This document shows, one piece after another, positions 141 to 56,371 of a stretch of 64,000 bases of DNA. Source of the DNA: Xiphias gladius. Lineage: Eukaryota; Chordata; Actinopteri; Istiophoriformes; Xiphiidae. Made by a program: the position numbers and the translations under genes. Under the pieces are notes generated by a model. It searched no databases. It was not told the DNA's origin and saw only the letters and a program-made list of their open reading frames with translations. Position 1 is the stretch's first letter. Each line of letters starts with the position of its first letter. The stretch covers positions 26,442,439-26,506,438 of the forward strand of contig NC_053413.1 of the NCBI RefSeq assembly GCF_016859285.1. Direction: 5' to 3'.

Positions 141-2352
141 CTCGACTCCACGGTGTGCAAGGAAATGTCGGTATCAGACACAGAGGTGTCTGATGTGACG
201 TGGACGGACAACGGTACTTTCAACCTGTCAGAAGGACACACACCACAGACGGAGAACTCAGAGGGTACGTTTGTCAGCCCTACAGGTGTGGACACATGGT
301 TGTAAAATAAAGATGTCGGGTCTCTAGAATGGAGGCTCAGAAGCACAGAGGCGCATCCGATTGAACAGCTGCGACGAGTTTTGTAGCTCGATGGCGGTGG
401 CAACTGTGCTTGGACGGTAAATGTTAGGGGGTTATCTTTAGTATACTCATATGCAATCAATCTAGTTTCTGAGATAATCAAGACAAAGAAATTGAACCGG
501 ACCCTTTGCATCACTCTACCATCCAACGGCCCAGACAAGCATTTTTCACTCCTGCAGTACATAATCTAAACCACCTTTTAACTTTTTTATTTATTTAACT
601 TTGATTTTTTTATTTTATTTTATTACAAAAATGTGTACCCTTACTTTAATTCAGCTTACTTTATTTAAATTGCATAATTTACCAAGCATTAATACTGTTT
701 CCTGGGTACGTACGGTATAATAAAAAACAAACAAAAAGACAATTAAGACAAACACACACCTGACAAATTATGATGATTCGAGTTTGTTGCATGCACCAAA
801 GTCTATGAGAAATGAATGTCGGGACAAAGTTCAGACTTCTTTAGCTTCTATCTGTATTGCTAAAAAAAAGAATCCTCTTTCTTTAGGTATAGCAAATTAC
901 TAAATCGATGCATTTAAAAAGGCAGTCATGAAGTGACTGATTAGATTTGGTATTAGAATGATGCATTAACATGACTAAGAGTCCGCAGCCATGCTTGAAG
1001 CTTTGTGAGGCTGTACAGTGGTGACGCGGGATAAACGCTGATGTCAGCATGCTAACGTGCTCATAATGACGCCGCTAAAATCCTGACGTTTTGCAGTAAG
1101 GATGTTTACCATGTTCGTCATTCTTAGCAGGTCAGCATGGTAATGTTTGCTGATTGGCAAGAAAGGCAAAGTACGGCTGAGGCTGATGGGAACTTCATTA
1201 GTTTGGCAGGGATTTTGTCCAAAACAAAAGCAGTGGCCAAACTGAAATTTTGCTCCAATGATGGGGCTACATGAAAAGTAAGAGGTTCACCGAAGTCATT
1301 AGGATTCATCCTCTTGTGACCATGAATGTCTGCACCAAATTTTGTGCCAGTTCATTGAGTAAATATTGAGATTTTCCCAAGATAAGTGAAAACGTTCACC
1401 TGCTGGCGGCGCTAGTGGAAATGTCAGAGGATCACCAAAGTCACGAGGGTTGTATGAAAGTTCATGGTTATCCATCCAATAGTCGTTGAGATATTTCAGT
1501 CTGAACTGAAGTGGTGGACTGACTGACAGACGTGTATTTACTCCGTTGGCACACTCCGGACTTCACGAAGACAATGGGCTTGCTGCCTTATTTTCTCTGC
1601 TCAAATTTTAATCAAATTTTTATGCCCTCAATTTTTCTGTCAGCTCATTGCTCACTGTATGAATAACAAATATTAAATACAATATTATTGATTGCATTAT
1701 ATCCAAGTTAGAAAATATCAGGTTTAGGACTGTGGAGAAAAAAATAACAAAAAAATAAGTATCTTTGTGCATAATGTGAACATTTTGTGCCGGTTTCCTG
1801 TTAATGTCTTTGCCACTTGACCACTCTTTGTATCTCAACCTCACAGACCTCGACAGAGAAGAAGTGTTCACCGGTGGCCTTCCAGAATTCCCTTCACTTG
1901 ACAACGGCCTGACGACCAACGGCGACGACGACGATGACCTCATGCTGGGCCTTCCCTTGCCTCCGCCTCAGCCGCAGGAACCAATCAAATCCACGCATAC
2001 ACCTGCTCCTCAAAACGCCCTGGAATTGGTCAACCAGATGGCGGGAGACTTCATCGCTGCCGCGGTCACAACTGCCATCCAGGAGAGAATAGAAGCAGCG
2101 GTCGGCTTCGATGCGCCGAGCAACAACCCGGAGCGGTCAAGACGCCCAGAATCCACCAGGCTGCTGGAGCTGGCCGAGGAGTCGGACAGTGAGGTGGAGG
2201 ACTTTGAGCTGCTGGACCAGTCGGAGCTGGAGCAACTGGAGGGGGAGCTGGGGCTGGGAGAGGAGAAGGCCCAGGCCAAAGAGGAGGCGCAGGTGGAGAG
2301 CGACAATTCGGCCTCAACTGGATTCTTCACCAAACTCCTCAGACGCCAATGA
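141..2352 (+). CDS. retreg1: retreg1 (fam134b), ER-phagy receptor, last two coding exons (partial gene)
   Basis: Reticulophagy regulator 1 sits in curved ER membrane through a reticulon-homology domain and binds LC3/GABARAP to deliver ER fragments to autophagosomes. Only the C-terminal 209 residues are in the window. Exon A is 141-264 (acceptor CCCACAG, donor GTACGT) and exon B is 1847-2352 (acceptor CTCACAG). They join in phase 1 to give an ENSEDLDREE-type junction. Exon A encodes the conserved [12 protein letters not shown] block. Exon B encodes an FPSLDNG block, an Asp run, a [14 protein letters not shown] segment, and the acidic LC3-interacting motif [10 protein letters not shown] with core F-E-L-L at 2203-2214. 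The end, [11 protein letters not shown], resembles RETREG1 (human ends GFLSNLLGGH) more than RETREG2 or RETREG3 as I recall them. The membrane part lies upstream of the window. A RETREG2 paralogue is the main alternative; the znf622-march11 neighbourhood favours retreg1. Confidence 0.9.
265..1846 (+). other. retreg1 last intron with an interspersed repeat
   Basis: The intron runs from GTACGT at 265 to CTCACAG ending at 1846. Its middle (about 1020-1545) contains phrases typical of a very common percomorph repeat: CATGCTAACGTGCTC, a CTGGCGGCGCTAGTGG block, GGATCACCAAAGTCA, and TCCATCCAATAGTCGTTGAG followed by GTGGTGGACTGACTGACA. I recognise the family by its wording, not by a search, and cannot name its class. 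AT-rich, low-complexity sequence fills about 570-760. Confidence 0.6.
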
Positions 2353-6418: not shown

Positions 6419-6550
6419 AAGATCAGAGCTCAAACTAATTCCAGTTCTAGGAAAGTGACACTCAGACAGTCGTTGCCACTGAAAGGTGAAATGGCGCAGA
6501 AAGGAGTTCAGCTCGACCTGGAAACCTTTTCCTGTGCACACATCAATTGA
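6419..6550 (+). pseudogene. Truncated finTRIM relic (5' end only)
   Basis: This is the first copy of the array. It matches the region upstream of the intact TRIM genes from about 6419 and keeps the start codon (ATG 6491) and the first 15-16 codons (MAQKGVQLDLETFSC). It then jumps at about 6534-6543 directly into the common downstream sequence (CAATTGAACCAAAG), losing essentially the whole RING-to-SPRY coding region and the poly(A) signal. The predicted product would be about 19 residues and ends at a TGA. A single internal deletion of roughly 3.5 kb explains it. The upstream ISRE has one mismatch (GAAAGTGACACT). Confidence 0.9.
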
Positions 6551-6714
6551 ACCAAAGTTGGCTGAAATACAAGAAGTCACAGAGAATCACATCTTGAATT
6601 TGATAGGATTCATATTTTCCACCTTATCTTATAACGTTATTCATATGCCCATATGTAGAGGCAGTGAAAGAGGTATTGATTGCTGTCATCTTTCCAACTG
6701 TCCAATGATGGAAG

Positions 6715-7145
6715 TTATATACACATTTCTACTTTACTCTACTACATTTTAGAGGGGAACATTGTTCTTTTTTCTCCGCTACACGTCTTTCACAGCTGTA
6801 GTTACTTTGCAGAGTCAGATTAATGATACAGATCACAGTCAAGAAATAAATTGTGATGTATCATCGTAGGTAATACAAGATTCAAAAACTACCCAGAAGT
6901 ATATGAAGTCATTAAAATTAGTCCCACCTTTAGCAGCTGCAACATTAAAGTGATGTTTACACATGAATGCGTCAGTGATTAAAATCCAATAATCTAATAT
7001 ACATAATTCTGAAAGGAGCCATTCTGCATAATGAGTTCTTTTACATTTGATACTTTACCAATATGTTTTGATGATGCTTATACTTTTGCACCTTTACTTA
7101 AATAAAACTCTGAAAGAAATCACTTTTACTTGCAACAGAGTATTT
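6715..7145. repeat. Interspersed teleost repeat, copy in TRIM unit 0
   Basis: The motifs ACATTTCTACTTTACTCTAC, CTACATTTTAGAGGGGAACA, TTAGCAGCTGCAACATTAAAG and ACTTTTACTTGCAACAGAGT are the wording of a frequent percomorph element that normally ends with AAGTAAAGGATCTGAGTACTTC and CCACTG. Here that end is missing and the sequence switches to TATTTCTATAAGCAGC. The same truncated copy is repeated in each unit (starts near 10385, 14045 and 17715); only the last one (21393-21885) keeps the usual end. Confidence 0.6.
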
Positions 7146-7765
7146 CTATAAGCAGCATATAGAAACATAATGCACGGTTAGCATTGATCATAGATTTCAC
7201 AAATTGTGTCTCAATTGGTGTGTTGACAGTAGAAATCTCTTATTTACAAACCATTTTTCCTGAAGCCTGCAGGGATGAAACTGTCCAGAAGTACTGAACT
7301 GAACCCCATCCTGTCCCTAGTTTGGTAAATATATTTGTTTGCATTACGACTCTTTGTCTTCTCAAAACATGGCCAAACAATAGCAATGACGTCAACGCCT
7401 GCATCCAAAGGGATTAGTTACTTATACACTGATTTGTAGTTTGTATTGTATTTATCTGTGTATGGTGAGGAAGTATTTCTATTAGTCATATTCTGCAATT
7501 TATATTGTAAAAAGAGTGAATCACACAGAATCAAACTGCTCCTCTTCCTGGCATGAATCGAATCCTGATAACCCTCCCTCTTCTTCCTGCTCTCAAACAC
7601 AGTGAACTTTACTCTGTCCATATATTTCCTTGTTCCTTCCCCTTCAGATCTACAGTTTGAAGATGGGTGGAACCAACATGTGGTGAAGTGCAAGAGCTGA
7701 CAGGCCCCGTTCACTGCAGAAACAGATGTTGTTAAGATCAGAGCTCAAACTAGTTTCGGATCTAA

Positions 7766-7777
7766 GAAAGTGAAACT
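7766..7777 (+). promoter_or_regulatory. ISRE upstream of TRIM copy 1
   Basis: GAAAGTGAAACT is a perfect match to the interferon-stimulated response element core GAAANNGAAACT bound by ISGF3/IRFs. It ends 28 nt before the ATG at 7806. This spacing implies either a very short 5' UTR or an element lying around the transcription start. Confidence 0.75.
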
Positions 7778-7805
7778 CAGACAGTCGTTGCCACTGAGAG
7801 GTGAA

Positions 7806-9485
7806 ATGGCGCAGAAAGGAGTTCAGCTGGACCTGGAAACCTTTTCCTGTTTGATCTGTCTGGATCTACTGAAGGATCCGGTGGCTGTTCCCTGTGGACA
7901 CAGCTACTGCATGAACTGTATTAAAAGCTTCTGGGATGAAGAGGATGAGAAGAAAATCCACAGCTGCCCTCAGTGTAGGCAGACCTTCACACCGAGGCCT
8001 GTCCTGGTGAAAAACACCATGTTAGCAGCTTTGGTGGAGGAGCTGAAGAAAACGGGACTCCAAGCTGCTCCTGCTGATCCCGGCTATGCTGGACCTGAAG
8101 ATGTGGCCTGTGATGTCTGCACTGTGAGAAAACTGAAAGCTCTGAAATCCTGTTTGGTGTGTCTGGCATCTTACTGTGAGACACACCTACAGCCCCATTT
8201 TAAATCACCTACATTTGAAAAACACAAGCTGGTGGACCCCTCCAAGAAGCTCCAGGAGAACATCTGCTCTCGTCATGATGAATTGATGAAGATGTTCTGC
8301 CGCACTGATCAGCAGTGTATCTGTTATCTCTGCTCTGTGGATGAACATAAAGGCCACGACGCAGTCTCAGCTGCTGCAGAAAGGACTGAGAGGCAGAGAG
8401 AGCTGGAGCTGAGTCGACAACAAATCCAGCAGAGAATCCAGGACAGAGAGAGAGATGTGAAGGTGCTTCAACAGGAGGCGGAGGCCATCAATCGCTCTGC
8501 TGATAAAGCAGTGGAGGACAGTGAGAAGATCTTCACTGAGCTGATCCGTCTCATCGAGAAAAGAAGCTCTGGTGTGAAGCAGCAGATCAGATCCCAGCAG
8601 AAAACTGAAGTGAGTCGAGTCAAAGAGTTTCAGGAGAAGCTGGAGCAGGAGATCAATGAGCTGAAGAGGAAAGAAGCTGAGCTGAAGCAGCTCTCACACA
8701 CAGAAGATCACAACCAGTTTCTACGCAACTACCCCTCATTGTCAGGACTCAGTCAATCTACAGACTCATCCAGCATCAATATCCGTCCTCTGAGGTACTT
8801 TGAAGATGTGACAGCAGCTGTGTCAGAGGTCAGAGATAAACTACAGGACATTCTGACTGAGAAATGGATGAAGATCTCATTGACAGAGGCTGAGATGGAT
8901 GTTCCTCCATCACATCCACAACCGGAGCCCAAGACCAGAGCTGGATTCTTAAAATATTCACAGGAAATCACACTGGATCCAAACACAGCACACACACGTC
9001 TGTTATTATCTGAGGGAAACAGAAAAGCAACATTAATGAGTCAGCGACAGTCTTATCCTAGTCACCCAGAAAGATTCACTAAATGTTTTCAGGTCCTGAG
9101 TAGAGAGAGTCTGATTGGACGTTGTTACTGGGAGGTGGAGTGGAGAAGAAGAGTTTATGTAGCAGTCGCATACAAGAATATCAGTGGAGCAGAAAGATTG
9201 GATGAATGTGTATTCGGACTAAATAACAAATCTTGGGCATTAAATTGTGACCAAATGGGTTATACGTTCTGGTATAACAGCATCAAGACTCCAGTCTCAG
9301 GTCCTCAGTCCTCCAGAGTAGGAGTGTACCTGGATCACAGTGCAGGTATTCTGTCCTTCTACAGTGTCTCTGAAACCATGACTCTACTCCACAGAGTCCA
9401 GACCACATTCACTCAGCCTCTCTATGCTGGACTATGGTTTAGTGGATATAAAGGAAACAATGCTGAGTTCTGTGAACTCAAATAG
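7806..9485 (+). CDS. finTRIM/TRIM16-like E3 ubiquitin ligase, copy 1
   Basis: This is an intronless 559-aa tripartite-motif protein, a probable cytosolic antiviral or signalling E3 ligase. Its RING is C3HC4: C15, C18, C30, H32, C35, C38, C54, C57. B-box 1 starts at C102/C105 and B-box 2 at C154/H157 through H184. A coiled coil covers about 190-300 (heptad-rich, Glu/Gln/Lys/Arg). PRY-SPRY (B30.2) covers about 380-559, with LDP at 390, WEVE at 442 and YLDH at 508. The start is taken at ATG 7806 because the in-frame upstream GTG at 7770 is not a normal vertebrate start and overlaps the ISRE; the ATG has G at -3 and +4. The family is the single-exon TRIM16-like/TRIM25-like fish group. Copy 1 has the A-type linker (WMKISLTEAEMD) and the C-terminus FSGYKGNNAEFCELK. 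Lack of introns suggests an ancestral retrocopy (inference). Confidence 0.93.
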   Translation: MAQKGVQLDLETFSCLICLDLLKDPVAVPCGHSYCMNCIKSFWDEEDEKKIHSCPQCRQTFTPRPVLVKNTMLAALVEELKKTGLQAAPADPGYAGPEDVACDVCTVRKLKALKSCLVCLASYCETHLQPHFKSPTFEKHKLVDPSKKLQENICSRHDELMKMFCRTDQQCICYLCSVDEHKGHDAVSAAAERTERQRELELSRQQIQQRIQDRERDVKVLQQEAEAINRSADKAVEDSEKIFTELIRLIEKRSSGVKQQIRSQQKTEVSRVKEFQEKLEQEINELKRKEAELKQLSHTEDHNQFLRNYPSLSGLSQSTDSSSINIRPLRYFEDVTAAVSEVRDKLQDILTEKWMKISLTEAEMDVPPSHPQPEPKTRAGFLKYSQEITLDPNTAHTRLLLSEGNRKATLMSQRQSYPSHPERFTKCFQVLSRESLIGRCYWEVEWRRRVYVAVAYKNISGAERLDECVFGLNNKSWALNCDQMGYTFWYNSIKTPVSGPQSSRVGVYLDHSAGILSFYSVSETMTLLHRVQTTFTQPLYAGLWFSGYKGNNAEFCELK

Positions 9486-11437
9486 AAAGAAGTCATTTAA
9501 GGGACAGTTGGTCAAAATCTGTGTTTTAGTTCATCCGTTTATTTGGTCTCCATGTTTGTTGCTAAAAGCTCATTGCTGTTGTGCCTCTGCGCTGCATGGA
9601 GATCACCTGTCAATCAAACATTATGGGTGGTACTTTGGCATCTTCTCCTTTATCGTCCTGTTGATGTTTGACTTTCTTTAGGTGGAGCTGGAGCCTCGGA
9701 GGAGATCACTGCTCATGATGATTTTTGTTTACGTAAACTTATGTTTCTCCACGTGAAAATGTAAACTTCTCTCTTCTCTAAATGTTTGTTGAATATTTGT
9801 ACTGATGTATTTGTATGTTGTTGTTTCTCTTCCGCTGCATGAGCCTGAACAGACAAATCACCAGACCTTCCTTTATCTGAGATATTTAGTTCTCACTGTG
9901 AAAAGAAAGAAAGCTATAATTACGTTTACATTAATGCGTTTGTCAGATCAAATGTTGTCTTTGCACAAATCGGCTTACAAAGAAGATGCTCTGATGTATT
10001 ATAAAACTGTATTCATTGTGGTTATAGTCAATAAGGAGATACTTCATTATTTATACTGAACTGTCAACAAAGAAATGCATCTAAAACAGTCATGATTAAG
10101 GTTCCTGACAACATCAAAGATAAAGTTAATCCAACTGTTATAAAAAGAAATAATTTTTTATTATAATGTCAGTAATTATATTTGAAAATGTGCATTCAGA
10201 TAAATCAGAATAAACATATTCAATTGAACCAAAGTTGGCTGAAATACAAGAAGTCACAGAGAATCACATCTTGAATTTGATAGGATTCATATTTTCCACC
10301 TTATAACGTTATTCATATGCCCATATGTAGAGGCAGTGAAAGAGGTATTGATTGCTGTCATCTTTCCAACTGTCCAATGATGGAAGTTATATACACATTT
10401 CTACTTTACTCCACTACATTTTAGAGGGGAACATTGTTCTTTTTTCTCCGCTACACGTCTTTCACAGCTGTAGTTACTTTGCAGAGTCAGATTAATGATA
10501 CAGATCACAGTCAAGAAATAAATTGTGATGTATCATCGTAGGTAATACAAGATTCAAAAACTACCCAGAAGTATATGAAGTCATTAAAATTAGTCCCACC
10601 TTTAGCAGCTGCAACATTAAAGTGATGTTTACACATGAATGCGTCAGTGATTAAAATCCAATAATCTAATATACATAATTCTGAAAGGAGCCATTCTGCA
10701 TAATGAGTTCTTTTACATTTGATACTTTACCAATATGTTTTGATGATGCTTATACTTTTGCACCTTTACTTAAATAAAACTCTGAAAGAAATCACTTTTA
10801 CTTGCAACAGAGTATTTCTATAAGCAGCATATAGAAACATAATGCACGGTTAGCATTGATCATAGATTTCACAAATTGTGTCTCAATTGGTGTGTTGACA
10901 GTAGAAATCTCTTATTTACAAACCATTTTTCCTGAAGCCTGCAGGGATGAAACTGTCCAGAAGTACTGAACTGAACCCCATCCTGTCCCTAGTTTGGTAA
11001 ATATATTTGTTTGCATTACGACTCTTTGTCTTCTCAAAACATGGCCAAACAATAGCAATGACGTCAACGCCTGCATCCAAAGGGATTAGTTACTTATACA
11101 CTGATTTGTAGTTTGTATTGTATTTATCTGTGTATGGTGAGTAAGTATTTCTATTAGTCATATTCTGCAATTTATATTGTAAAAAGAGTGAATCACACAG
11201 AATCAAACTGCTCCTCTTCCTGGAATGAATCGAATCCTGATAACCCTCCCTCTTCTTCCTGCTCTCAAACACAGTGAACTTTACTCTGTCCATATATTTC
11301 CTTGTTCCTTCCCCTTCAGATCTACAGTTTGAAGATGGGTGGAACCAACATGTGGTGAAGTGCAAGAGCTGACAGGCCCCGTTCACTGCAGAAACAGATG
11401 TTGTTAAGATCAGAGCTCAGACTAGTTTCGGGTCTAA
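9486..11437. other. Spacer between TRIM copies 1 and 2
   Basis: This holds the 3' UTR of copy 1 to about 10215, then the interspersed repeat (about 10385-10815), then the upstream region of copy 2. Equivalent spacers lie at 13143-15101 and 16816-18771. The small ORFs here are kept only because the DNA units are near-identical; no coding signal is seen. Confidence 0.7.
10209..10214 (+). terminator. Poly(A) signal of TRIM copy 1
   Basis: AATAAA lies about 0.7 kb after the stop in the conserved 3' region, just before the CAATTGAACC landmark. It is present in all four intact copies and absent from the relic. Its use is inferred. Confidence 0.45.
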
Positions 11438-11449
11438 GAAAGTGAAACT
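11438..11449 (+). promoter_or_regulatory. ISRE upstream of TRIM copy 2
   Basis: GAAAGTGAAACT, a perfect ISRE core, ends 28 nt before ATG 11478, with the same spacing as in copies 1, 3 and 4. Confidence 0.75.
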
Positions 11450-11477
11450 CAGACAGTCGTTGCTACTGAGAGGTGAA

Positions 11478-13142
11478 ATGGCGCAGAAAGGAGTTCAGCT
11501 GGACCTGGAAACCTTTTCCTGTTCGATCTGTCTGGATCTACTGAAGGATCCGGTGACTGTTCCCTGTGGACACAGCTACTGCATGAACTGTATTAAAAGC
11601 TTCTGGGATGAAGAGGATGAGAAGAAAATCCACAGCTGCCCTCAGTGTAGGCAGACCTTCACACCGAGGCCTGTCCTGGTGAAAAACACCATGTTAGCAG
11701 CTTTGGTGGAGGAGCTGAAGAAAACGGGACTCCAAGCTGCTCCTGCTGATCCCGGCTATGCTGGACCTGAAGATGTGGCCTGTGATGTCTGCACTGTGAG
11801 AAAACTGAAAGCTCTGAAATCCTGTTTGGTGTGTCTGGCATCTTACTGTGAGACACACCTACAGCCCCATTTTAAATCACCTACATTTGAAAAACACAAG
11901 CTGGTGGACCCCTCCAAGAAGCTCCAGGAGAACATCTGCTCTCGTCATGATGAATTGATGAAGATGTTCTGCCGCACTGATCAGCAGTGTATCTGTTATC
12001 TCTGCTCTGTGGATGAACATAAAGGCCACGACACAGTCTCAGCTGCTGCAGAAAGGACTGAGAGGCAGAGAGAGCTGGAGCTGAGTCGACAACAAATCCA
12101 GCAGAGAATCCAGGACAGAGAGAGAGATGTGAAGGTGCTTCAACGGGAGGCGGAGATCATCAATCGCTCTGCTGATAAAGCAGTGGAGGACAGTGAGAAG
12201 ATCTTCACTGAGCTGATCCGTCTCATCGAGAAAAGAAGCTCTGGTGTGAAGCAGCGGATCAGATCCCAGCAGAAAACTGAAGTGAGTCAAGTCAAAGAGC
12301 TTCAGGAGAAGCTGGAGCAGGAGATCAATGAGCTGAAGAGGAAAGACGCTGAGCTGAAGCAGCTCTCACACACAGAGGATCACAACCAGTTTCTACGCAA
12401 CTACCCCTCATTGTCAGGACTCAGTCAATCTACAGACTCATCCAGCATCAATATCCGTCCTCTGAGGTACTTTGAAGATGTGACAGCAGCTGTGTCAGAG
12501 GTCAGAGATAAACTACAGGACATTCTGACTGAGAAATGGACAAACATCTTAATGACAGTGACTGAAGTGGATGTTTTGCTGCCACAACCGGAGCCCAAGA
12601 CCAGAGCTGAATTCTTAAAATATTCACAGGAAATCACACTGGATCCAAACACAGCACACACACGTCTGTTATTATCTGAGGGCAACAGAAAAGCAACATT
12701 AATGAAACAACATCAGTCTTATCCTAGTCACCCAGACAGATTCACTACATGGTGTCAGGTCCTGAGCAGAGAGAGTCTGATTGGACGTTGTTACTGGGAG
12801 GTGGAAAAAGGCGGGGGTGGAGTTTCAGTAATGGTTGCATACAAAGACAATAACTCTGTAAATGAAAAATGTGGAGATAATGACAAGTCTTGGGCCTTAG
12901 AATTTTACAAAAATCGTTATGACCTCAGACATAACAATATCAAAACTTCCATCTCAGGTCCTCATTCCTCCAGAGTAGGAGTGTACCTGGATCACAGTGC
13001 AGGTATTCTGTCCTTCTACAGTGTCTCTGAAACCATGACTCTACTCCACAGAGTCCAGACCACATTTACACAGCCTCTCTATGCTGGACTTTGGCTTTAC
13101 TGGCCAGTTGGAGCCAATGCTGAGTTCTGTAAATTCCAGTAG
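11478..13142 (+). CDS. finTRIM/TRIM16-like E3 ubiquitin ligase, copy 2 (divergent SPRY)
   Basis: This is an intronless 554-aa TRIM protein with the same RING, B-box and coiled-coil layout as copy 1 and near-identical sequence there (RING core SCSICLDLLKDPVTVPCGH). It has the B-type linker (WTNILMTVTEVDVL). Its SPRY is the most divergent of the four: between about 12805 and 12970 it reads EKGGGGVSVMVAYKDNNS, then NEKCGDNDKSWALEFYKNRY and DLRHNNIKTSISGPHSS, where the other three share WRRRVYVAVAYK/WRRRVFVAVAYK and GYTFWYNSIKTPVSGPQSS. The C-terminus is LYWPVGANAEFCKFQ. In TRIM proteins the SPRY variable loops contact the target, so this copy probably recognises something else (inference). The start was chosen as in copy 1. 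Confidence 0.93.
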   Translation: MAQKGVQLDLETFSCSICLDLLKDPVTVPCGHSYCMNCIKSFWDEEDEKKIHSCPQCRQTFTPRPVLVKNTMLAALVEELKKTGLQAAPADPGYAGPEDVACDVCTVRKLKALKSCLVCLASYCETHLQPHFKSPTFEKHKLVDPSKKLQENICSRHDELMKMFCRTDQQCICYLCSVDEHKGHDTVSAAAERTERQRELELSRQQIQQRIQDRERDVKVLQREAEIINRSADKAVEDSEKIFTELIRLIEKRSSGVKQRIRSQQKTEVSQVKELQEKLEQEINELKRKDAELKQLSHTEDHNQFLRNYPSLSGLSQSTDSSSINIRPLRYFEDVTAAVSEVRDKLQDILTEKWTNILMTVTEVDVLLPQPEPKTRAEFLKYSQEITLDPNTAHTRLLLSEGNRKATLMKQHQSYPSHPDRFTTWCQVLSRESLIGRCYWEVEKGGGGVSVMVAYKDNNSVNEKCGDNDKSWALEFYKNRYDLRHNNIKTSISGPHSSRVGVYLDHSAGILSFYSVSETMTLLHRVQTTFTQPLYAGLWLYWPVGANAEFCKFQ

Positions 13143-13867
13143 AAAAAAAAGTAATTTAAGAGGCAGTTGGTCAACATCTTTATCTTAATTTATCAGTTTA
13201 TTTGGTCTCCATGTTTGTTGCTAAAAGCTCATTGCTGTTGTGCCTCTGCGCTGCATGGAGATCACCTGTCAATCAAACATTATGGGTGGTACTTTGGCAT
13301 CTTCTCCTTTATCGTCCTGTTGATGTTTGACTTTCTTTAGGTGGAGCTGGAGCCTCGGAGGAGATCACTGCTCATGATGATTTTTGTTTACGTAAACTTA
13401 TGTTTCTCCACGTGAAAATGTAAACTTCTCTCTTCTCTAAATGTTTGTTGAATATTTGTACTGATGTATTTGTATGTTGTTGTTTCTCTTCCGCTGCATG
13501 AGCCTGAACAGACAAATCACCAGTCCTTCCTTTATCTGAGATATTTAGTTCTCACTGTGAAAAGAAAGAAAGCTATAATTACGTTTACATTAATGCGTTT
13601 GTCAGATCAAATGTTGTCTTTGCACAAATCGGCTTACAAAGAAGATGCTCTGATGTATTATAAAACTGTATTCATTGTGGTTATAGTCAATAAGGAGATA
13701 CTTCATTATTTATACTGAACTGTCAACAAAGAAATGCATCTAAAACAGTCATGATTAAGGTTCCTGACAACATCAAAGATAAAGTTAATCCAACTGTTAT
13801 AAAAAGAAATAATTTTTTATTATAATGTCAGTAATTATATTTGAAAATGTGCATTCAGATAAATCAG

Positions 13868-13873
13868 AATAAA
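13868..13873 (+). terminator. Poly(A) signal of TRIM copy 2
   Basis: AATAAA lies at the same place in the 3' region as in copy 1. Confidence 0.45.
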
Positions 13874-15101
13874 CATATTCAATTGAACCAAAGTTGGCTG
13901 AAATACAAGAAGTCACAGAGAATCACATCTTGAATTTGATAGGATTCATATTTTCCACCTTATCTTATAACGTTATTCATATGCCCATATGTAGAGGCAG
14001 TGAAAGAGGTATTGATTGCTGTCATCTTTCCAACTGTCCAATGATGGAAGTTATATACACATTTCTACTTTACTCCACTACATTTTAGAGGGGAACATTG
14101 TTCTTTTTTCTCCGCTACACGTCTTTCACAGCTGTAGTTACTTTGCAGAGTCAGATTAATGATACAGATCACAGTCAAGAAATAAATTGTGATGTATCAT
14201 CGTAGGTAATACAAGATTCAAAAACTACCCAGAAGTATATGAAGTCATTAAAATTAGTCCCACCTTTAGCAGCTGCAACATTAAAGTGATGTTTACACAT
14301 GAATGCGTCAGTGATTAAAATCCAATAATCTAATATACATAATTCTGAAAGGAGCCATTCTGCATAATGAGTTCTTTTACATTTGATACTTTACCAATAT
14401 GTTTTGATGATGCTTATACTTTTGCACCTTTACTTAAATAAAACTCTGAAAGAAATCACTTTTACTTGCAACAGAGTATTTCTATAAGCAGCATATAGAA
14501 ACATAATGCACGGTTAGCATTGATCATAGATTTCACAAATTGTGTCTCAATTGGTGTGTTGACGGTAGAAATCTCTTATTTACAAACCATTTTTCCTGAA
14601 GCCTGCAGGGATGAAACTGTCCAGAAGTACTGAACTGAACCCCATCCTGTCCCTAGTTTGGTAAATATATTTGTTTGCATTACGACTCTTTGTCTTCTCA
14701 AAACATGGCCAAACAATAGCAATGACGTCAACGCCTGCATCCAAAGGGATTAGTTACTTATACACTGATTTGTAGTTTGTATTGTATTTATCTGTGTATG
14801 GTGAGTAAGTATTTCTATTAGTCATATTCTGCAATTTATATTGTAAAAAGAGTGAATCACACAGAATCAAACTGCTCCTCTTCCTGGAATGAATCGAATC
14901 CTGATAACCCTCCCTCTTCTTCCTGCTCTCAAACACAGTGAACTTTACTCTGTCCATATATTTCCTTGTTCCTTCCCCTTCAGATCTACAGTTTGAAGAT
15001 GGGTGGAACCAACATGTGGTGAAGTGCAAGAGCTGACAGGCCCCGTTCACTGCAGAAACAGATGTTGTTAAGATCAGAGCTCAAACTAGTTTCGGTTCTA
15101 A

Positions 15102-15113
15102 GAAAGTGAAACT
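15102..15113 (+). promoter_or_regulatory. ISRE upstream of TRIM copy 3
   Basis: GAAAGTGAAACT, a perfect ISRE core, ends 28 nt before ATG 15142. Confidence 0.75.
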
Positions 15114-15141
15114 CAGACAGTCGTTGCCACTGAGAGGTGAA

Positions 15142-16815
15142 ATGGCGCAGAAAGGAGTTCAGCTGGACCTGGAAACCTTTTCCTGTGCGATCTGTCTGGA
15201 TCTACTGAAGGATCCGGTGGCTGTTCCCTGTGGACACAGCTACTGCATGAACTGTATTAAAAGCTTCTGGGATGAAGAGGATGAGAAGAAAATCCACAGC
15301 TGCCCTCAGTGTAGGCAGACCTTCACACCGAGGCCTGTCCTGGTGAAAAACACCATGTTAGCAGCTTTGGTGGAGGAGCTGAAGAAAACTGGACTCCAAG
15401 CTGCTCCTGCTGATCCCGGCTATGCTGGACCTGAAGATGTGGCCTGTGATGTCTGCACTGTGAGAAAACTGAAAGCTCTGAAATCCTGCTTGGTGTGTCT
15501 GGCATCTTACTGTGAGACACACCTACAGCCCCATTTTAAATCACCTACATTTGAAAAACACAAGCTGTTGGACCCCTCCAAGAAGCTCCAGGAGAACATC
15601 TGCTCTCGTCATGATGAATTGATGAAGATGTTCTGCCGCACTGATCAGCAGTGTATCTGTTATCTCTGCTCTGTGGATGAACATAAAGGCCACGACACAG
15701 TCTCAGCTGCTGCAGAAAGGACTGAGAGGCAGAGAGAGCTGGAGCTGAGTCGACAACAAATCCAGCAGAGAATCCAGGACAGAGAGAGAGATGTGAAGGT
15801 GCTTCAACAGGAGGCGGAGGCCATCAATCGCTCTGCTGATAAAGCAGTGGAGGATAGTGAGAAGATCTTCACTGAGCTGATCCATCTCATCGAGAAAAGA
15901 AGCTCTGGTGTGAAGCAGCGGATCAGATCCCAGCAGAAAACTGAAGTGAGTCAAGTCAAAGAGCTTCAGGAGAAGCTGGAGCAGGAGATCAATGAGCTGA
16001 AGAGGAAAGACGCTGAGCTGAAGCAGCTCTCACACACAGAGGATCACAACCAGTTTCTACGCAACTACCCCTCATTGTCAGGACTCAGTCAATCTACAGA
16101 CTCATCCAGCATCAATATCCGTCCTCTGAGGTACTTTGAAGACGTGACAGCAGCTGTGTCAGAGGTCAGAGATAAACTACAGGACATTCTGACTGAGAAA
16201 TGGACAAACATCTTAATGACAGTGACTGGAGTGGATGTTTTGCTGCCACAACCGGAGCCCAAGACCAGAGCTGGATTCTTAAAATATTCACAGGAAATCA
16301 CACTGGATCCAAACACAGCACACACAGGTCTGTTATTATCTGAGGGAAACAGAAAAGCAACATTAATGAAACAACATCAGTCTTATCCTAGTCACCCAGA
16401 AAGATTCACTAAATATTTTCAGGTCCTGAGTAGAGAGAGTCTGATTGGACGTTGTTACTGGGAGGTGGAGTGGAGAAGAAGAGTTTATGTAGCAGTCGCA
16501 TACAAGGATATAAGGAGAACGGGGAGATCGGATGAATGTGTATTTGGATTCAATAACAAATCTTGGACATTAAATTGTGACCAAATGGGTTATACGTTCT
16601 GGTATAACAGCATCAAGACTCCAGTCTCAGGTCCTCAGTCCTCCAGAGTAGGAGTGTACCTGGATCACAGTGCAGGTATTCTGTCCTTCTACAGTGTCTC
16701 TGAAACCATGACTCTCCTCCACAGAGTCCAGACCACATTCACTCAGCCTCTCTATGCTGGACTGTGGTTTAGTGGATATAAAGGAACCAATGCTGAGTTC
16801 TGTGAACTCAAATAG
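15142..16815 (+). CDS. finTRIM/TRIM16-like E3 ubiquitin ligase, copy 3 (mosaic)
   Basis: This is an intronless 557-aa TRIM protein. The RING (SCAICLDLLKDPVAVPCGH), B-boxes and coiled coil are as in the other copies, with small changes such as HKLLDPSKK and TELIHLIEK. The linker is B-type like copy 2 (WTNILMTVTGVDVL), but the SPRY and C-terminus are copy-1-like (WRRRVYVAVAYKDIRRTGRS, then FSGYKGTNAEFCELK). It is therefore a mosaic of the two types, as expected from gene conversion or unequal crossover. The loop DIRRTGRSDECVFGFNNK differs from copies 1 and 4 (NISGAERLDECVFGLNNK). Confidence 0.93.
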   Translation: MAQKGVQLDLETFSCAICLDLLKDPVAVPCGHSYCMNCIKSFWDEEDEKKIHSCPQCRQTFTPRPVLVKNTMLAALVEELKKTGLQAAPADPGYAGPEDVACDVCTVRKLKALKSCLVCLASYCETHLQPHFKSPTFEKHKLLDPSKKLQENICSRHDELMKMFCRTDQQCICYLCSVDEHKGHDTVSAAAERTERQRELELSRQQIQQRIQDRERDVKVLQQEAEAINRSADKAVEDSEKIFTELIHLIEKRSSGVKQRIRSQQKTEVSQVKELQEKLEQEINELKRKDAELKQLSHTEDHNQFLRNYPSLSGLSQSTDSSSINIRPLRYFEDVTAAVSEVRDKLQDILTEKWTNILMTVTGVDVLLPQPEPKTRAGFLKYSQEITLDPNTAHTGLLLSEGNRKATLMKQHQSYPSHPERFTKYFQVLSRESLIGRCYWEVEWRRRVYVAVAYKDIRRTGRSDECVFGFNNKSWTLNCDQMGYTFWYNSIKTPVSGPQSSRVGVYLDHSAGILSFYSVSETMTLLHRVQTTFTQPLYAGLWFSGYKGTNAEFCELK

Positions 16816-17538
16816 AAAGAAGTCATTTAAGGGACAGTTGGTCAAAATCTGTGTTTTAGTTCATCCGTTTATTTGGTCTCCATGTTTGTTGCTAAAAGTT
16901 CATTGCTGTTGTGCTTCTGCGCTGCACGGAGATCACCTGTCAATCAAACATTATGGGTGGTACTTTGGCATCTTCTCCTTTATCGTCCTGTTGATGTTTG
17001 ACTTTCTTTAGGTGGAGCTGGAGCCTCGGAGGAGATCACTGCTCATGATGATTTTTGTTTACGTAAACTTATGTTTCTCCACGTGAAAATGTAAACTTCT
17101 CTCTTCTCTAAATGTTTGTTGAATATTTGTATTGATGTATTTGTATGTTGTTGTTTCTCTTCCGCTGCATGAACCTGAACAGACAAATCACCAGACCTTA
17201 CTTTATCTGAGATATTTAGTTCTCACTGTGAAAAGAAAGAAAGCTATAATTACATTTATATTAATGCGTTTGTCAGATCAAATGTTGTCTTTGCACAAAT
17301 CGGCTTACAAAGAAGATGCTCTGATGTATTATAAAACTGTATTCATCGTGGTTATAGTCAATAAGGAGATACTTCATTATTTATACTGAACTGTCAACAA
17401 AGAAATGCATCTAAAACAGTCATGATTAAGGTTCCTGACAACATCAAAGATAAAGTTAATCCAACTGTTATAAAAAGAAATAAGTTTTTATTATAATGTC
17501 AGTAATTATATTTGAAAATGTGCATTCAGTTAAATCAG

Positions 17539-17544
17539 AATAAA
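17539..17544 (+). terminator. Poly(A) signal of TRIM copy 3
   Basis: AATAAA lies at the conserved place in the 3' region. Confidence 0.45.
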
Positions 17545-18771
17545 CATATTCAATTGAACCAAAGTTGGCTGAAATACAAGAATTCACAGAGAATCACATC
17601 TTGAATTTGACAGGATTCATATTTTCCACCTTATCTTATAACGTTATTCATATGCCCATATGTAGAGGCAGTGAAAGAGGTATTGATTGCTGTCATCTTT
17701 CCAACTGTCCAATGATGGAAGTTATATACACATTTCTACTTTACTCTACTACATTTTAGAGGGGAACATTGTTCTTTTTTCTCCGCTACACGTCTTTCAC
17801 AGCTGTAGTTACTTTGCAGAGTCAGATTAATGATACAGATCACAGTCAAGAAATAAATTGTGATGTATCATCGTAGGTAATACAAGATTCAAAAACTACC
17901 CAGAAGTATATGAAGTCATTAAAATTAGTCCCACCTTTAGCAGCTGCAACATTAAAGTGATGTTTACACATGAATGCGTCAGTGATTAAAATCCAATAAT
18001 CTAATATACATAATTCTGAAAGGAGCCATTCTGCATAATGAGTTCTTTTACATTTGATACTTTACCAATATGTTTTGATGATGCTTATACTTTTGCACCT
18101 TTACTTAAATAAAACTCTGAAAGAAATCACTTTTACTTGCAACAGAGTATTTCTATAAGCAGCATATAGAAACATAATGCACGGTTAGCATTGATCATAG
18201 ATTTCTAAATTGTGTCTCAATTGGTGTGTTGACGGTAGAAATCTCTTATTTACAAACCATTTTTGCTGAAGCCTGCAGGGATGAAACTGTCCAGAAGTAC
18301 TGAACTGAACCCCATCCTGTCCCTAGTTTGGTAAATATATTTGTTTGCATTACGACTCTTTGTCTTCTCAAAACATGGCCAAACAATAGCAATGACGTCA
18401 ACGCCTGCATCCAAAGGGATTAGTTACTTATACACTGATTTGTAGTTTGTATTGTAGTTATCTGTGTATGGTGAGTAAGTATTTCTATTAGTCATATTCT
18501 GCAATTTATATTGTAAAAAGAGTGAATCACACAGAATCAAACTGCTCCTCTTCCTGGAATGAATCGAATCCTGATAACCCTCCCTCTTCTTCCTGCTCTC
18601 AAACACAGTGAACTTTACTCTGTCCATATATTTCCTTGTTCCTTCCCCTTCAGATCTACAGTTTGAAGATGGGTGGAACCAACATGTGGTGAAGTGCAAG
18701 AGCTGACAGGCCCCGTTCACTGCAGAAACAGATGTTGTTAAGATCAGAGCTCAAACTAGTTTCGGTTCTAA

Positions 18772-18783
18772 GAAAGTGAAACT
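18772..18783 (+). promoter_or_regulatory. ISRE upstream of TRIM copy 4
   Basis: GAAAGTGAAACT, a perfect ISRE core, ends 28 nt before ATG 18812. Confidence 0.75.
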
Positions 18784-18811
18784 CAGACAGTCGTTGCTAC
18801 TGAGAGGTGAA

Positions 18812-20491
18812 ATGGCGCAGAAAGGAGTTCAGCTGGACCTGGAAACCTTTTCCTGTGCGATCTGTCTGGATCTACTGAAGGATCCGGTGGCTGTTCCCTG
18901 TGGACACAGCTACTGCATGAACTGTATTAAAAGCTTCTGGGATGAAGAGGATGAGAAGAAAATCCACAGCTGCCCTCAGTGTAGGCAGACCTTGACACCG
19001 AGGCCTGTCCTGGTGAAAAACACCATGTTAGCAGCTTTGGTGGAGGAGCTGAAGAAAACTGGACTCCAAGCTGCTCCTGCTGATCCCGGCTATGCTGGAC
19101 CTGAAGATGTGGCCTGTGATGTCTGCACTGTGAGAAAACTGAAAGCTGTCAAGTCCTGTTTGATTTGTCTTGTCTCTTACTGTGACAAGCACCTCCAACC
19201 TCATTATGAGTCTCCAGCCTTTGAAAATCACAAGCTGGTGGACCCCTCCAAGAAGCTCCAGGAGAACATCTGCTCTCGTCATGATGAATTGATGAAGATG
19301 TTCTGCCGCACTGATCAGCAGTGTATCTGTTATCTCTGCTCTGTGGATGAACATAAAGGCCACGACACAGTCTCAGCTGCTGCAGAAAGGACTGAGAGGC
19401 AGAGAGAGCTGGAGCTGAGTCGACAACAAATCCAGCAGAGAATCCAGGACAGAGAGAGAGATGTGAAGGTGCTTCAACAGGAGGCGGAGGCCATCAATCG
19501 CTCTGCTGATAAAGCAGTGGAGGATAGTGAGAAGATCTTCACTGAGCTGATCCGTCTCATCGAGAAAAGAAGCTCTGGTGTGAAGCAGCAGATCAGATCC
19601 CAGCAGAAAACTGAAGTGAGTCAAGTCAAAGAGCTTCAGGAGAAGCTGGAGCAGGAGATCAATGAGCTGAAGAGGAAAGACGCTGAGCTGAAGCAGCTCT
19701 CACACACAGAGGATCACAACCAGTTTCTACGCAACTACCCCTCATTGTCAGGATTCAGTCAATCTACAGACTCATCCAGCATCAATATCCGTCCTCTGAG
19801 GTACTTTGAAGATGTGACAGCAGCTGTGTCAGGGGTCAGAGATAAACTACAGGACATTCTCACTGAGAAATGGATGAAGATCTCATTGACAGAGGCTGAG
19901 ATGGATGTTCCTCCATCACATCCACAACCGGAGCCCAAGACCAGAGCTGGATTCTTAAAATATTCACAGGAAATCACACTGGATCCAAACACAGCACACA
20001 CACGTCTGTTATTATCTGAGGGAAACAGAAAAGCAACATTAATGAGTCAGCGACAGTCTTGTCCTAGTCACCCAGACAGATTCATTAGATGGCGTCAGGT
20101 CCTGAGTAAAGAGAGTCTGATTGGACGTTGTTACTGGGAGGTGGAGTGGAGAAGAAGAGTTTTTGTAGCAGTCGCATACAAGAATATCAGTGGAGCAGAA
20201 AGATTGGATGAATGTGTATTCGGACTAAATAACAAATCTTGGGCATTAAATTGTGACCAAATGGGTTATACGTTCTGGTATAACAGCATCAAGACTCCAG
20301 TCTCAGGTCCTCAGTCCTCCAGAGTAGGAGTGTACCTGGATCACAGTGCAGGTATTCTGTCCTTCTACAGTGTCTCTGAAACCATGACTCTACTCCACAG
20401 AGTCCAGACCACATTCACTCAGCCTCTCTATGCTGGACTTTGGCTTTACTGGCAAGTTGGAGCCAATGCTGAGTTCTGTAAATTCCAGTAG
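18812..20491 (+). CDS. finTRIM/TRIM16-like E3 ubiquitin ligase, copy 4 (two conversion patches)
   Basis: This is an intronless 559-aa TRIM protein with RING, two B-boxes, coiled coil and PRY-SPRY in the same positions as copy 1. The linker is A-type (as copy 1) and the SPRY body is copy-1-like, but the last residues (LYWQVGANAEFCKFQ) and the first bases after the stop are copy-2-like. In the B-box 1/B-box 2 interval, 19148-19228 carries about 22 differences in 81 bp from all other copies (VKSCLICLVSYCDKHLQPHY against LKSCLVCLASYCETHLQPHF), with near-identical flanks. The Cys/His ligands are kept, so the gene still looks functional. Confidence 0.93.
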   Translation: MAQKGVQLDLETFSCAICLDLLKDPVAVPCGHSYCMNCIKSFWDEEDEKKIHSCPQCRQTLTPRPVLVKNTMLAALVEELKKTGLQAAPADPGYAGPEDVACDVCTVRKLKAVKSCLICLVSYCDKHLQPHYESPAFENHKLVDPSKKLQENICSRHDELMKMFCRTDQQCICYLCSVDEHKGHDTVSAAAERTERQRELELSRQQIQQRIQDRERDVKVLQQEAEAINRSADKAVEDSEKIFTELIRLIEKRSSGVKQQIRSQQKTEVSQVKELQEKLEQEINELKRKDAELKQLSHTEDHNQFLRNYPSLSGFSQSTDSSSINIRPLRYFEDVTAAVSGVRDKLQDILTEKWMKISLTEAEMDVPPSHPQPEPKTRAGFLKYSQEITLDPNTAHTRLLLSEGNRKATLMSQRQSCPSHPDRFIRWRQVLSKESLIGRCYWEVEWRRRVFVAVAYKNISGAERLDECVFGLNNKSWALNCDQMGYTFWYNSIKTPVSGPQSSRVGVYLDHSAGILSFYSVSETMTLLHRVQTTFTQPLYAGLWLYWQVGANAEFCKFQ

Positions 20492-21216
20492 AAAAAAAAG
20501 TAATTTAAGAGGCAGTTGGTCAAAATCTGTGTTTTAGTTCATCCGTTTATTTGGTCTCCATGTTTGTTGCTAAAAGCTCATTGCTGTTGTGCTTCTGCGC
20601 TGCATGGAGATCACCTGTCAATCAAACATTATAGATGGTACTTTGGCATCTTCTCCTTTATCGTCCTGTTGATGTTTGACTTTCTTTAGGTGGAGCTGGA
20701 GCCTCGGAGGAGATCACTGCTCATGATGATTTTTGTTTACGTAAACTTATGTTTCTCCACGTGAAAATGTAAACTTCTCTCTTCTCTAAATGTTTGTTGA
20801 ATATTTGTACTGATGTATTTGTATGTTGTTGTTTCTCTTCCGCTGCATGAACCTGAACAGACAAATCACCAGACCTTCCTTTATCTGAGATATTTAGTTC
20901 TCACTGTGAAAAGAAAGAAAGCTATAATTACATTTATATTAATGCGTTTGTCAGATCAAATGTTGTCTTTGCACAAATCGGCTTACAAAGAAGATGCTCT
21001 GATGTATTATAAAACTGTATTCATCGTGGTTATAGTCAATAAGGAGATACTTCATTATTTATACTGAACTGTCAACAAAGAAATGCATCTAAAACAGTCA
21101 TGATTAAGGTTCCTGACAACATCAAAGATAAAGTTAATCCAACTGTTATAAAAAGAAATAATTTTTTATTATAATGTCAGTAATTATATTTGAAAATGTG
21201 CATTCAGATAAATCAG

Positions 21217-21222
21217 AATAAA
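21217..21222 (+). terminator. Poly(A) signal of TRIM copy 4
   Basis: AATAAA lies at the conserved place in the 3' region of the last unit. Confidence 0.45.
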
Positions 21223-21820
21223 CATATTCAATTGAACCAAAGTTGGCTGAAATACAAGAAGTCACAGAGAATCACATCTTGAATTTGATAGGATTCATAT
21301 TTTCCACCTTATAACGTTATTCATATGCCCATATGTAGAGACAGTGAAAGAGGTATTGATTGCTGTCATCTTTCCAACTGTCCAATGATGGAAGTTATAT
21401 ACACATTTCTACTTTACTCTACTACATTTTAGAGGGGAACATTGTTCTTTTTTCTCCGCTACACGTCTTTCACAGCTGTAGTTACTTTGCAGAGTCAGAT
21501 TAATGATACAGATCACAGTCAAGAAATAAATTGTGATGTATCATCGTAGGTAATACAAGATTCAAAAACTACCCAGAAGTATATGAAGTCATTAAAATTA
21601 GTCCCACCTTTAGCAGCTGCAACATTAAAGTGATGTTTACACATGAATGCGTCAGTGATTAAAATCCAATAATCTAATATACATAATTCTGAAAGGAGCC
21701 ATTCTGCATAATGAGTTCTTTTACATTTGATACTTTACCAATATGTTTTGATGATGCTTATATTTTTGCACCTTTACTTAAATAAAACTCTGAAAGAAAT
21801 CACTTTTACGTGCAACAGAG

Positions 21821-25037: not shown

Positions 25038-25620
25038 GTTGTCATGGCCTCCTACACTTGCATCAGCTGTCGAGTGGCTTTCGCAGATGGCGAGGTGCAG
25101 CGAGCACACTACAAAACCGACTGGCACCGCTACAACCTGAAGCGCAAGGTGGCCGACATGCCACCTGTCACTGCTGAAAACTTCCAGGAGCGCGTCCTGG
25201 CGCAGAGGGCCGCTGCCGAACAGCATCTGGATGACGCAGCGGTCACAGAGGCCTGCACCGTCTGCAACAAGAAGTTCTCCAGTGCCAACGCCTACCAGAA
25301 CCACCTGCATTCCCGCAGACACCAGCAGGCCGAGAGTCAGGCCCTGCTCGCTGCCCAGAGGAAAGTGGAGAGGATGAACGAGAAGAACCTGGAAAAAGGA
25401 CTTGGCGACGAGAAGGTGGACCACGATGCCAGGAACGAGGCCCTGCAGCAAGCCCTGAAAGAGCAGCACAGATCAAGCCTGGCCAAGCAAGAGAAGGCCC
25501 AGACATCACAAGGAGCGACGAAGCAGAGGACAGAGAGGCCGGACAAACCTCCCCGGATGATGTGGCTGGAGGAGCAAGCCAAGAGACGAGAGAGAGAAGA
25601 GGGAGCCGAAGCTCAGGAAG
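25038..25620 (+). CDS. znf622: znf622 exon 2 (first coding exon)
   Basis: Acceptor TTTTAAG ends at 25037 and the start ATG is at 25044, giving MASYTCISCRVAF. It encodes zinc fingers 1 and 2 and the charged linker. The donor is GTGAGG at 25621, phase 1. Confidence 0.93.
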
Positions 25621-27486
25621 GTGAGGAGGAGAGATCAAACCACTGTGGACATCACTGAGTACACCTCTTACTGTTGTGACCTTTTTTTTTTTTTTTTTAA
25701 TTACAAATGACCGAAACTCTGACCGTTCCAATAATCCAAACTTGTATTAGACACTGCCCAGTGTATTTGTCTTACAGTGAAAGCACAGTCTGCTTGTTTC
25801 AAGATATTTTTATTAGTCTTTTATTACTGTCAATACTTTCTTACCCATCTTGTCTGCGGCATTAAACCCCAAACACATTGGTTCCTACTGAATACATAAT
25901 CTTTTAAAAATGACTCGTAAATATATATTTCCATTTTTATTTTAAAACGGCTCAGTAATTTTCAAAAACAGTTGGACACAGTAGTTTTTCAGTCAATCAT
26001 AAGGTAGTAGCTCATTTGTGGCGGACTGTTTTCAGCGGCCGGTTAATCCATCCATTTGGTGCTGTAGTGAGTATTTGGGGCAGCAGGATGGTGTGTGTGT
26101 GGGACTCCGTCCAAAAAAAAACTACAGTGTGTGATGGAGCGTGACAGTGTGGCTCACAGATGTGTTTTTAATAGTATTTGTACAATAGTGGAGCTCTGTG
26201 GCACAGACGAATAAGATATTTCAGGCTTCGATACACACACAGTATTTGTTGGTTTTTGTCTTTTCATGGAATTTGTTAACAAGAAGAAAAAATTTACACA
26301 ACAGTCTTCATGTTTGGAAAACTCAAACTCCCAACAACTCATTTTGTTAGTTTTTAACTACAGCTTGCTTGGAATCATTCATTTGTATAACAGACTTTTA
26401 TAAAGAGAATGATAGCAAGATATAATCACATTGGAACAAATGATTCCAGAAAAATTATATTTAATCATATTTATTTACCCTAATATATAATTAAGGTAAA
26501 TAAACTCCCTTCAGTTGTAAGATAAATGTACAGAAGTTCAAGTTGTTCTACTTAGTTTGTGGTGTTAAAATGTTCCCATGAAAATTTTCCAGAAGAGTGG
26601 GAGGATGTTGACGAGGAAGACGACGACGACGACGATGATGAGATGGAGGAGGATGAAGATGAAGAGGAGACAATGGACCAGGAGGAAGGAGACTTGGCGG
26701 CTCTGTCTGACCCCCAGCCAGCTTCCCTGCCAGGCTCCATCCCCATCAGCGACTGCCTGTTCTGCTCACATCACTCAAAGTCACTCATGAAGAACGTCAC
26801 CCACATGACCAAGGTCCACAGCTTCTTCATCCCTGATGTGGAGTTCCTTGTCGACCTCAAGGGCCTCGTCCGTTACCTCGGTGAGTTTGGTACAAGTTCC
26901 TCGGCCACTTGGTCTCAGGTTCGGGTTTATTGTCCTTTCCACACGCGTGCTTGACACACAAAACGTCGTTCCTTGTGGACCTCGGTGCAGCATAGAAACA
27001 GACATACAAACACCAGACAGTCTTACGGGTAAAAGTGAGCAGTCTGACATTAGCAGCAACAACTTGGATGTAAACAAGGTCCAGTGTATTTTCTCCTCTT
27101 GTAGCAAACTTGACATGTTGGTGGAATTTTGGCAAAACAGTCTTTTAAATTATCACGATTGAGGGTGTGCTTGATTGGTTGTGCCGTTTGTCGATCGCTG
27201 ACGCTGCTGTAAAGCTGTCGCAGGTGGACTACACACGATGACGACGACAGCGGTGAGCTCCCTCGGCACCTGGTAAACTTCAAACTCCACCAACGGTCCA
27301 CCGCCACGAGTCCCACCGGGCGGCGATGATGTTTCAAGCAGTGAGTTGGTGTCCAGAGTGTCGCTGTGCAGCCACGTTTCAATGAAAACCGGGACGCAGC
27401 AGTTCTTCATTTCACGCTGGATAGTCAGTTGTACGAGCTCTGCCGGTCTCTGGAAAATCCTGGCTGCTGTAGCTGAGTTTTGATGC

Positions 27487-56093: not shown

Positions 56094-56155
56094 AATATTT
56101 TATATGAACCCTACGCAATAATCCAACTGAGAGAAAAAATACAGACATAAAATAA

Positions 56156-56345
56156 TCCTACTAATAAATGGAGAAATCTCTCTCTTTCTTTATGTCTTCT
56201 GTCTGTCCTTTGATTTTCTCGACAGCCACTGATCTGATCAACTTCAAACTTCATGGGTGTAATACTGAGGGCCCAAGGAAGTGCAGTGTTGACTGTGAAG
56301 CTTTTTGGATGCACAGTTGTAAAGAAAATTGACGGACAGATTCCG
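56156..56345 (+). mobile_element. Helitron-like terminus, type B, unit 1
   Basis: Begins TCCTACTAATAAATG, which resembles the TCCTATATAATAAA 5' end of animal Helitrons. It is followed by a TCTTTCTTTATG part, then GATTTTCTCGACAGCCACTG and, about 120 bp on, the complementary arm (AGTTGTAAAGAAAATTGAC). The same start occurs at 57682, 59048 and 60415. The family assignment is by resemblance only. Confidence 0.35.
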
Positions 56346-56371
56346 GCATTTATTTTTAAACTGCACTTGCT

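Follow-up and report, generated by a model that had tools for sequence, protein, structure and literature searches.

The TRIM array and its genes

The window analysed here, a stretch of 64 kb of swordfish (Xiphias gladius) DNA, holds a tandem array of four TRIM genes in which long, nearly identical stretches alternate with short and strongly diverged patches. The ends of the self-alignment matches place the unit junctions at positions 7140, 10812, 14476 and 18147 and the right end of the array at 21820 (21823 at lower stringency), and thus delimit exactly four complete units, which lie head to tail, measure 3.66-3.67 kb each and recur at spacings of 3672, 3664, 3671 and 3673 bases. The units and the genes within them are as follows.

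6419..7140, + strand: remnant of a fifth, leftmost unit, 5'-truncated and with an internal deletion
7141..10812, + strand: complete unit 1, from self-alignment
10813..14476, + strand: complete unit 2, from self-alignment
14477..18147, + strand: complete unit 3, from self-alignment
18148..21820, + strand: complete unit 4; the matching ends at 21820, beyond which lies sequence not found in the other units
7806..9485, + strand: TRIM copy 1, 559 amino acids, RING / B-box / coiled coil / PRY-SPRY
11478..13142, + strand: TRIM copy 2, 554 amino acids
15142..16815, + strand: TRIM copy 3, 557 amino acids
18812..20491, + strand: TRIM copy 4, 559 amino acids

The first-pass annotation had read this locus as four intact intronless TRIM genes and a relic, produced by tandem duplication; open frames, Pfam matches in all four proteins and self-alignment confirm the genes and the relic, and the duplication is supported as well. 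The relic aligns at 91-94% identity over 6419-6537 with 7734-7852, a segment that starts just 5' of the ATG and reaches roughly codon 15; it keeps the first 15 TRIM codons (6491-6535), after which an internal deletion joins them to the 3' flank of the unit at about 6543. The segment 6419-7140 is the leftover of a fifth unit that suffered this deletion and lost its 5' part, and the sequence that follows copy 4 belongs to unit 4 as its normal end and is no extra copy. The array and the order of its copies are those of a single assembly.

Each of the four genes is a single uninterrupted coding frame from ATG to stop. RING, B-box, TRIM_CC, PRY and SPRY are found by Pfam in all four proteins, each of which thereby carries in one chain all the domains of TRIM class IV (RBCC-PRY-SPRY). 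Among the best 60 of 146 distinct matched sequences, all from solved structures, the closest are TRIM25 for the N-terminal half and, in a profile search of the PRY-SPRY part, TRIM16. Pfam calls one B-box (zf-B_box, residues 150-188), and a Cys/His-rich stretch at about 100-141 that aligns with TRIM25 was read as B-box 1 by eye. For one of the four proteins, compared with NCBIfam, the sole match is to the rad18 RING and falls far below the cut-off. By these features the array would best be filed as a single-exon finTRIM-type (TRIM25/TRIM16-like) cluster, and it seems to add one more member to a fish gene family already known, without amounting to a new type of system. At RING codon 16 (7851-7853), just after the first RING Cys, copies 1-4 encode Leu, Ser, Ala and Ala, respectively. 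A pyrimidine-rich stretch at 7620-7650, about 160 bases 5' of the ATG, has CAG at its end; as a putative splice acceptor it would allow an intron in the 5' untranslated region (UTR), with the coding part still in one exon. As for signs of retrocopying, reading by eye showed no long run of A downstream of the stop, no search having been aimed at a poly(A) tail or target-site duplications. Outside the array, tblastn with the array masked returned no convincing further TRIM piece in the window (best E 0.22), and none of the 4 stretches in viral contigs and 80 in prokaryote genome contigs that fit a pattern was confirmed as a relative.

Uneven divergence among the copies

All six pairs of copies were compared, with a difference cluster defined as at least five differences separated by gaps of at most 40 bases. 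The comparison yields 22 clusters, spanning 21-292 bases and diverging by 4.5-36.6%; 19 of them lie at 14.4-36.6%, and the remaining three at 4.5, 6.6 and 13.0%. Outside the clusters, divergence is 0.57% between copies 1 and 2, 0.85% between 1 and 3, 0.89% between 1 and 4, 0.74% between 2 and 3, 0.96% between 2 and 4 and 0.65% between 3 and 4. The near-identity that had been claimed for whole units, non-coding parts included, therefore stands outside the short patches and fails within them; likewise, the low divergence outside the clusters agrees with the proposed very recent expansion or homogenisation, with the qualification that homogenisation is only partial and diverged patches survive. 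Many of the differences are silent; their clusters lie in B-box 1, the linker between coiled coil and PRY, the SPRY core and the C-terminal end, the last of these reaching into the 3' UTR. In unit 1 coordinates the patches are the following.

8142..8232, + strand: B-box 1 patch; of 91 positions, 22-24 set copy 4 apart from copies 1-3, which differ among themselves at 0-2
8869..8909, + strand: coiled-coil/PRY linker patch; copies 1 and 4 differ from copies 2 and 3 at 14-15 of 41 positions, copy 1 from copy 4 at 0 of 41, copy 2 from copy 3 at 1 of 41
9017..9308, + strand: PRY/SPRY core patch, strongest at 9140-9308
9434..9536, + strand: C-terminal patch, running past the stop (9485) into the 3' UTR; copies 1 and 3 differ from copies 2 and 4 at 21-30 of 103 positions

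Within the SPRY core (9140-9308) copy 2 stands apart from the other three, with 63-66 differences in 157 positions; copy 3 differs from copies 1 and 4 at 13-14 of 169, and copy 1 from copy 4 at a single position of 169. The preceding bases, 9040-9139, vary to a moderate degree (6-14 of 100). Inside the two groups of the C-terminal patch, copy 1 differs from copy 3 at 2 of 103 positions and copy 2 from copy 4 at 8 of 105. The non-coding parts show 4-8 differences per 664-665 bases upstream (7141-7805), 0-3 per 593-598 at 6543-7140 and 1-12 per 678-683 in the 3' flank (9537-10214). Private sites number 75 in copy 2, 37 in copy 4, 18 in copy 3 and 9 in copy 1.

Of 3648 gap-free alignment columns 203 are variable, with a peak of 49 variable sites per 100 columns as compared with at most 19 in 2000 shuffles. 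Fifty-five sites divide the copies two against two, and along the sequence they support three groupings in 9 runs; 20000 shuffles gave 35.3 runs on average and never fewer than 21. No single tree of the four copies accommodates the order of the sites. The conflict between the groupings of different patches points to gene conversion or unequal exchange as the maker of the mosaic.

The same partition is seen at silent sites. The proportion of differing silent sites (pS) reaches 0.37-0.38 for copy 2 in the SPRY stretch, 0.39-0.45 between groups at the C-terminal end and 0.47-0.51 for copy 4 in B-box 1, where the proportion of differing non-silent sites (pN) is 0.10-0.11. By contrast, pS is 0-0.036 in the RING, from there to B-box 1, in B-box 2 with the coiled coil and, among copies 1-3, in B-box 1 itself; intermediate values are found in the linker between groups (0.125-0.129) and, for copy 3 compared with copies 1 and 4, in the SPRY stretch (0.097). 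As patches with 37-51% silent difference in the most diverged pairs lie amid stretches that are much more alike, exchange is needed besides recent duplication.

Origin of the mosaic

We consider it highly probable that the locus is a young finTRIM-type tandem array with exchange among its copies, whichever origin the diverged tracts have. One TRIM transcription unit would have been duplicated head to tail, after which unequal exchange and gene conversion would preserve an identity of about 99% over most of the gene bodies and of the non-coding flanks, and short tracts together with exchanges among copies would produce a mosaic that is densest in the PRY-SPRY half. For the diverged tracts themselves, import from other family members, with diverged paralogues as the presumed donors, is favoured over survival of old differences. 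At the level of function, interferon or virus sensing may activate the genes through an interferon-stimulated response element (ISRE) beside the ATG, the RING and coiled coil would assemble an oligomeric E3 ubiquitin ligase, and differing PRY-SPRY surfaces could direct the proteins to different targets. The ISRE-type motifs on which the first of these steps is based are listed here.

7766..7777, + strand: perfect ISRE-type motif GAAAGTGAAACT, unit 1, from pattern matching
11438..11449, + strand: perfect ISRE-type motif, unit 2, from pattern matching
15102..15113, + strand: perfect ISRE-type motif, unit 3, from pattern matching
18772..18783, + strand: perfect ISRE-type motif, unit 4, from pattern matching
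6451..6462, + strand: ISRE-type motif of the relic, with one mismatch to the pattern, from reading by eye

A perfect GAAANNGAAACT stands 28 bases upstream of the ATG in all four intact units, and this pattern matches five times in the whole window, against 0.34 expected, a number reached in 0 of 100 shuffles. The motifs suggest interferon induction of the TRIM copies. According to a review (PMC13030082), many finTRIMs are induced by virus or interferon, and PMC5445110 describes an antiviral activity for which zebrafish FTR83 needs its B30.2 domain as well as the RING/B-box/coiled-coil part.

Several observations weigh against this account of the array. Within the 64-kb window no donor sequence for the diverged tracts was found. 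The patch limits were fixed after inspection and the clusters are defined by density, so the contrast between inside and outside is partly built in. Nor is that contrast all-or-none, given up to 12 differences per 683 bases in the 3' flank and the intermediate pS, which next to the patches reaches 0.109 in PRY and 0.115 in codons 505-540. The shuffles are independent of the patch limits, and they gauge clustering, not a particular recombination model. Selection tests on the whole coding part of the four sequences (gapped codon columns excluded, linker-edge codons 8910 and 8913 counted as outside) counted 78 changes on 350 non-silent sites and 21 on 88 silent sites within the patches (p 0.66), and 18 on 954 and 9 on 267, respectively, outside them (p 0.95); with no non-silent excess in either part, diversifying selection is not shown. 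Finally, the four ISRE-type motifs descend from one ancestral site and do not count as four independent events, and the motif may lie within transcribed sequence.

The alternative that survives best shares the array and the exchange and reverses the direction, with old paralogues homogenised by recent conversion everywhere except in ancient recognition patches protected by selection. The high silent-site difference in the patches fits such old divergence, and both the PRY-SPRY core and the C-terminal end could plausibly form loops that bind targets; against this, the B-box 1 of copy 4, with its excess of pS over pN, shows no visible protective diversifying selection, and the conflicting patch groupings require exchange within the patches here too. 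We regard this explanation as possible and rather unlikely. An AlphaFold model of the PRY-SPRY part built from four rows reached a mean predicted local distance difference test score (pLDDT) of 39.9, and the variable residues were accordingly not placed on its loops.

An assembly artefact, by which copies were collapsed, duplicated or made chimeric, would draw on the fact that stretches about 99% alike outside the patches are poorly resolved by short reads, but every unit carries private differences, all four frames are open and the divergence of the patches is far above the level of read error, which leaves this explanation improbable. Still less probable is rapid positive selection on point mutations in recent duplicates that undergo no conversion. 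The many variable residues of the PRY-SPRY half would be expected from it, and positive selection on the B30.2 domain of zebrafish finTRIMs is reported in PMC2657112; yet the groupings conflict, the non-silent excess is lacking, and the silent and 3' UTR differences crowded into the patches (to 9536) rule out divergence by point mutation alone. An ordinary, uniform recent tandem array with nothing special in its pattern of differences, although in keeping with the constant spacing and near-identical flanks, is contradicted by the strong clustering of the variable columns and can hardly be entertained.

Genomic setting and relation to known families

The position that had been claimed for the array, between a RETREG1-like exon and ZNF622, is confirmed by matches to solved structures on both sides.

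1804..2352, + strand: last coding exon of a RETREG1 (FAM134B)-like gene with an LC3-interacting region (LIR) motif, left flank; PDB match
25044..25658, + strand: N-terminal coding exon of ZNF622, right flank; PDB 6lqm_0, E 2.6e-63

The LIR stretch of the left exon matches human reticulophagy regulator 1 (PDB 7fb5_B, E 0.00039) and has no Pfam match, with RETREG2 and RETREG3 as alternatives. Beyond ZNF622, a RING-CH exon at about 46072, which we take to belong to march11, is preceded by a reading frame at 39003-39662 with no Pfam match. The RETREG1-like exon, the TRIM array, ZNF622 and the RING-CH exon all lie on the + strand, and the order RETREG1-ZNF622-march11 is presumably that of human as well. 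That a single TRIM copy entered this block, and that the array is specific to one lineage, are hypotheses of the first-pass annotation. Downstream of the RING-CH exon, self-alignment reveals a second tandem array at 56091-61152 with a period of about 1.37 kb and adjacent copies up to 98% alike; pieces related to it extend from about 54.1 kb and to 61.6 kb.

Both the junction 7140/7141 and the right end at 21820 adjoin sequence that we presume to be mobile-element-like. The first bases of the unit include 33 bases (7147-7179) that resemble 3550-3582, presumably mobile-element-like too, at 88%, and this resemblance may bear on the duplication breakpoint. The junction context and the likeness of 33 bases are too little for a claim of repeat-mediated duplication. 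To the right of the array, 21821-21885 resembles what we take to be the continuation of a dispersed fish repeat that begins inside each unit; a second copy of the 33-base piece from 21821-21885 was not found within the window at up to three mismatches.

In van der Aa et al. 2009 (PMC2657112), finTRIMs are described as teleost-specific, nearest to trim16 and trim25 and clustered, with conserved synteny for the oldest members only; the family is known there for lineage-specific clusters, 47 of 55 medaka genes have the whole reading frame in one exon, and GARD places recombination breakpoints of the zebrafish genes in both the RING/B-box and the B30.2 parts. The swordfish array resembles the family so described in its RING, B-box (with a putative B-box 1 besides), coiled coil and B30.2, in having TRIM25 and TRIM16 as nearest relatives among solved structures, in clustering and in its single coding exon; it differs in consisting of four uniform units with flanks about 99% alike and individually visible patches, and in giving no significant selection test. 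The zebrafish NLR-B30.2 genes (PMC4852459) are similar in that conversion differs by gene part and, as proposed there, B30.2 becomes more variable where the tracts fall short of the exon length, and unlike the array in being NACHT/LRR receptors of nearly 400 genes instead of TRIM E3 ligases. On primate chromosome 11, young TRIM genes (PMC3228819) also go back to recent duplication; GARD places one breakpoint in them, between the RING and B-box 2, and for two copies that are 100% identical a gene conversion was suggested. There, in contrast, conversion was judged not extensive, and the duplications are segmental and partly inverted. We make no claim to a first report of conversion in finTRIM genes.

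Returning to the young array with exchange among its copies, a wider and tentative reading, doubtful at present, is that the locus works as a germline cassette exchanger. Conversion would keep bodies and promoters uniform while the copies exchange short segments of PRY-SPRY and of B-box 1 with one another and with finTRIM genes elsewhere; new target specificities would come from shuffling instead of point mutation, and copy number and patch combinations would vary between individuals. How a vertebrate innate multigene family keeps its effector body while altering its recognition surface is an open question. In a four-copy array with clean flanks individual exchange tracts can be counted more easily than in clusters of tens of genes, and they could be typed between individuals by long reads; the exchange pattern of this array is unusually legible.

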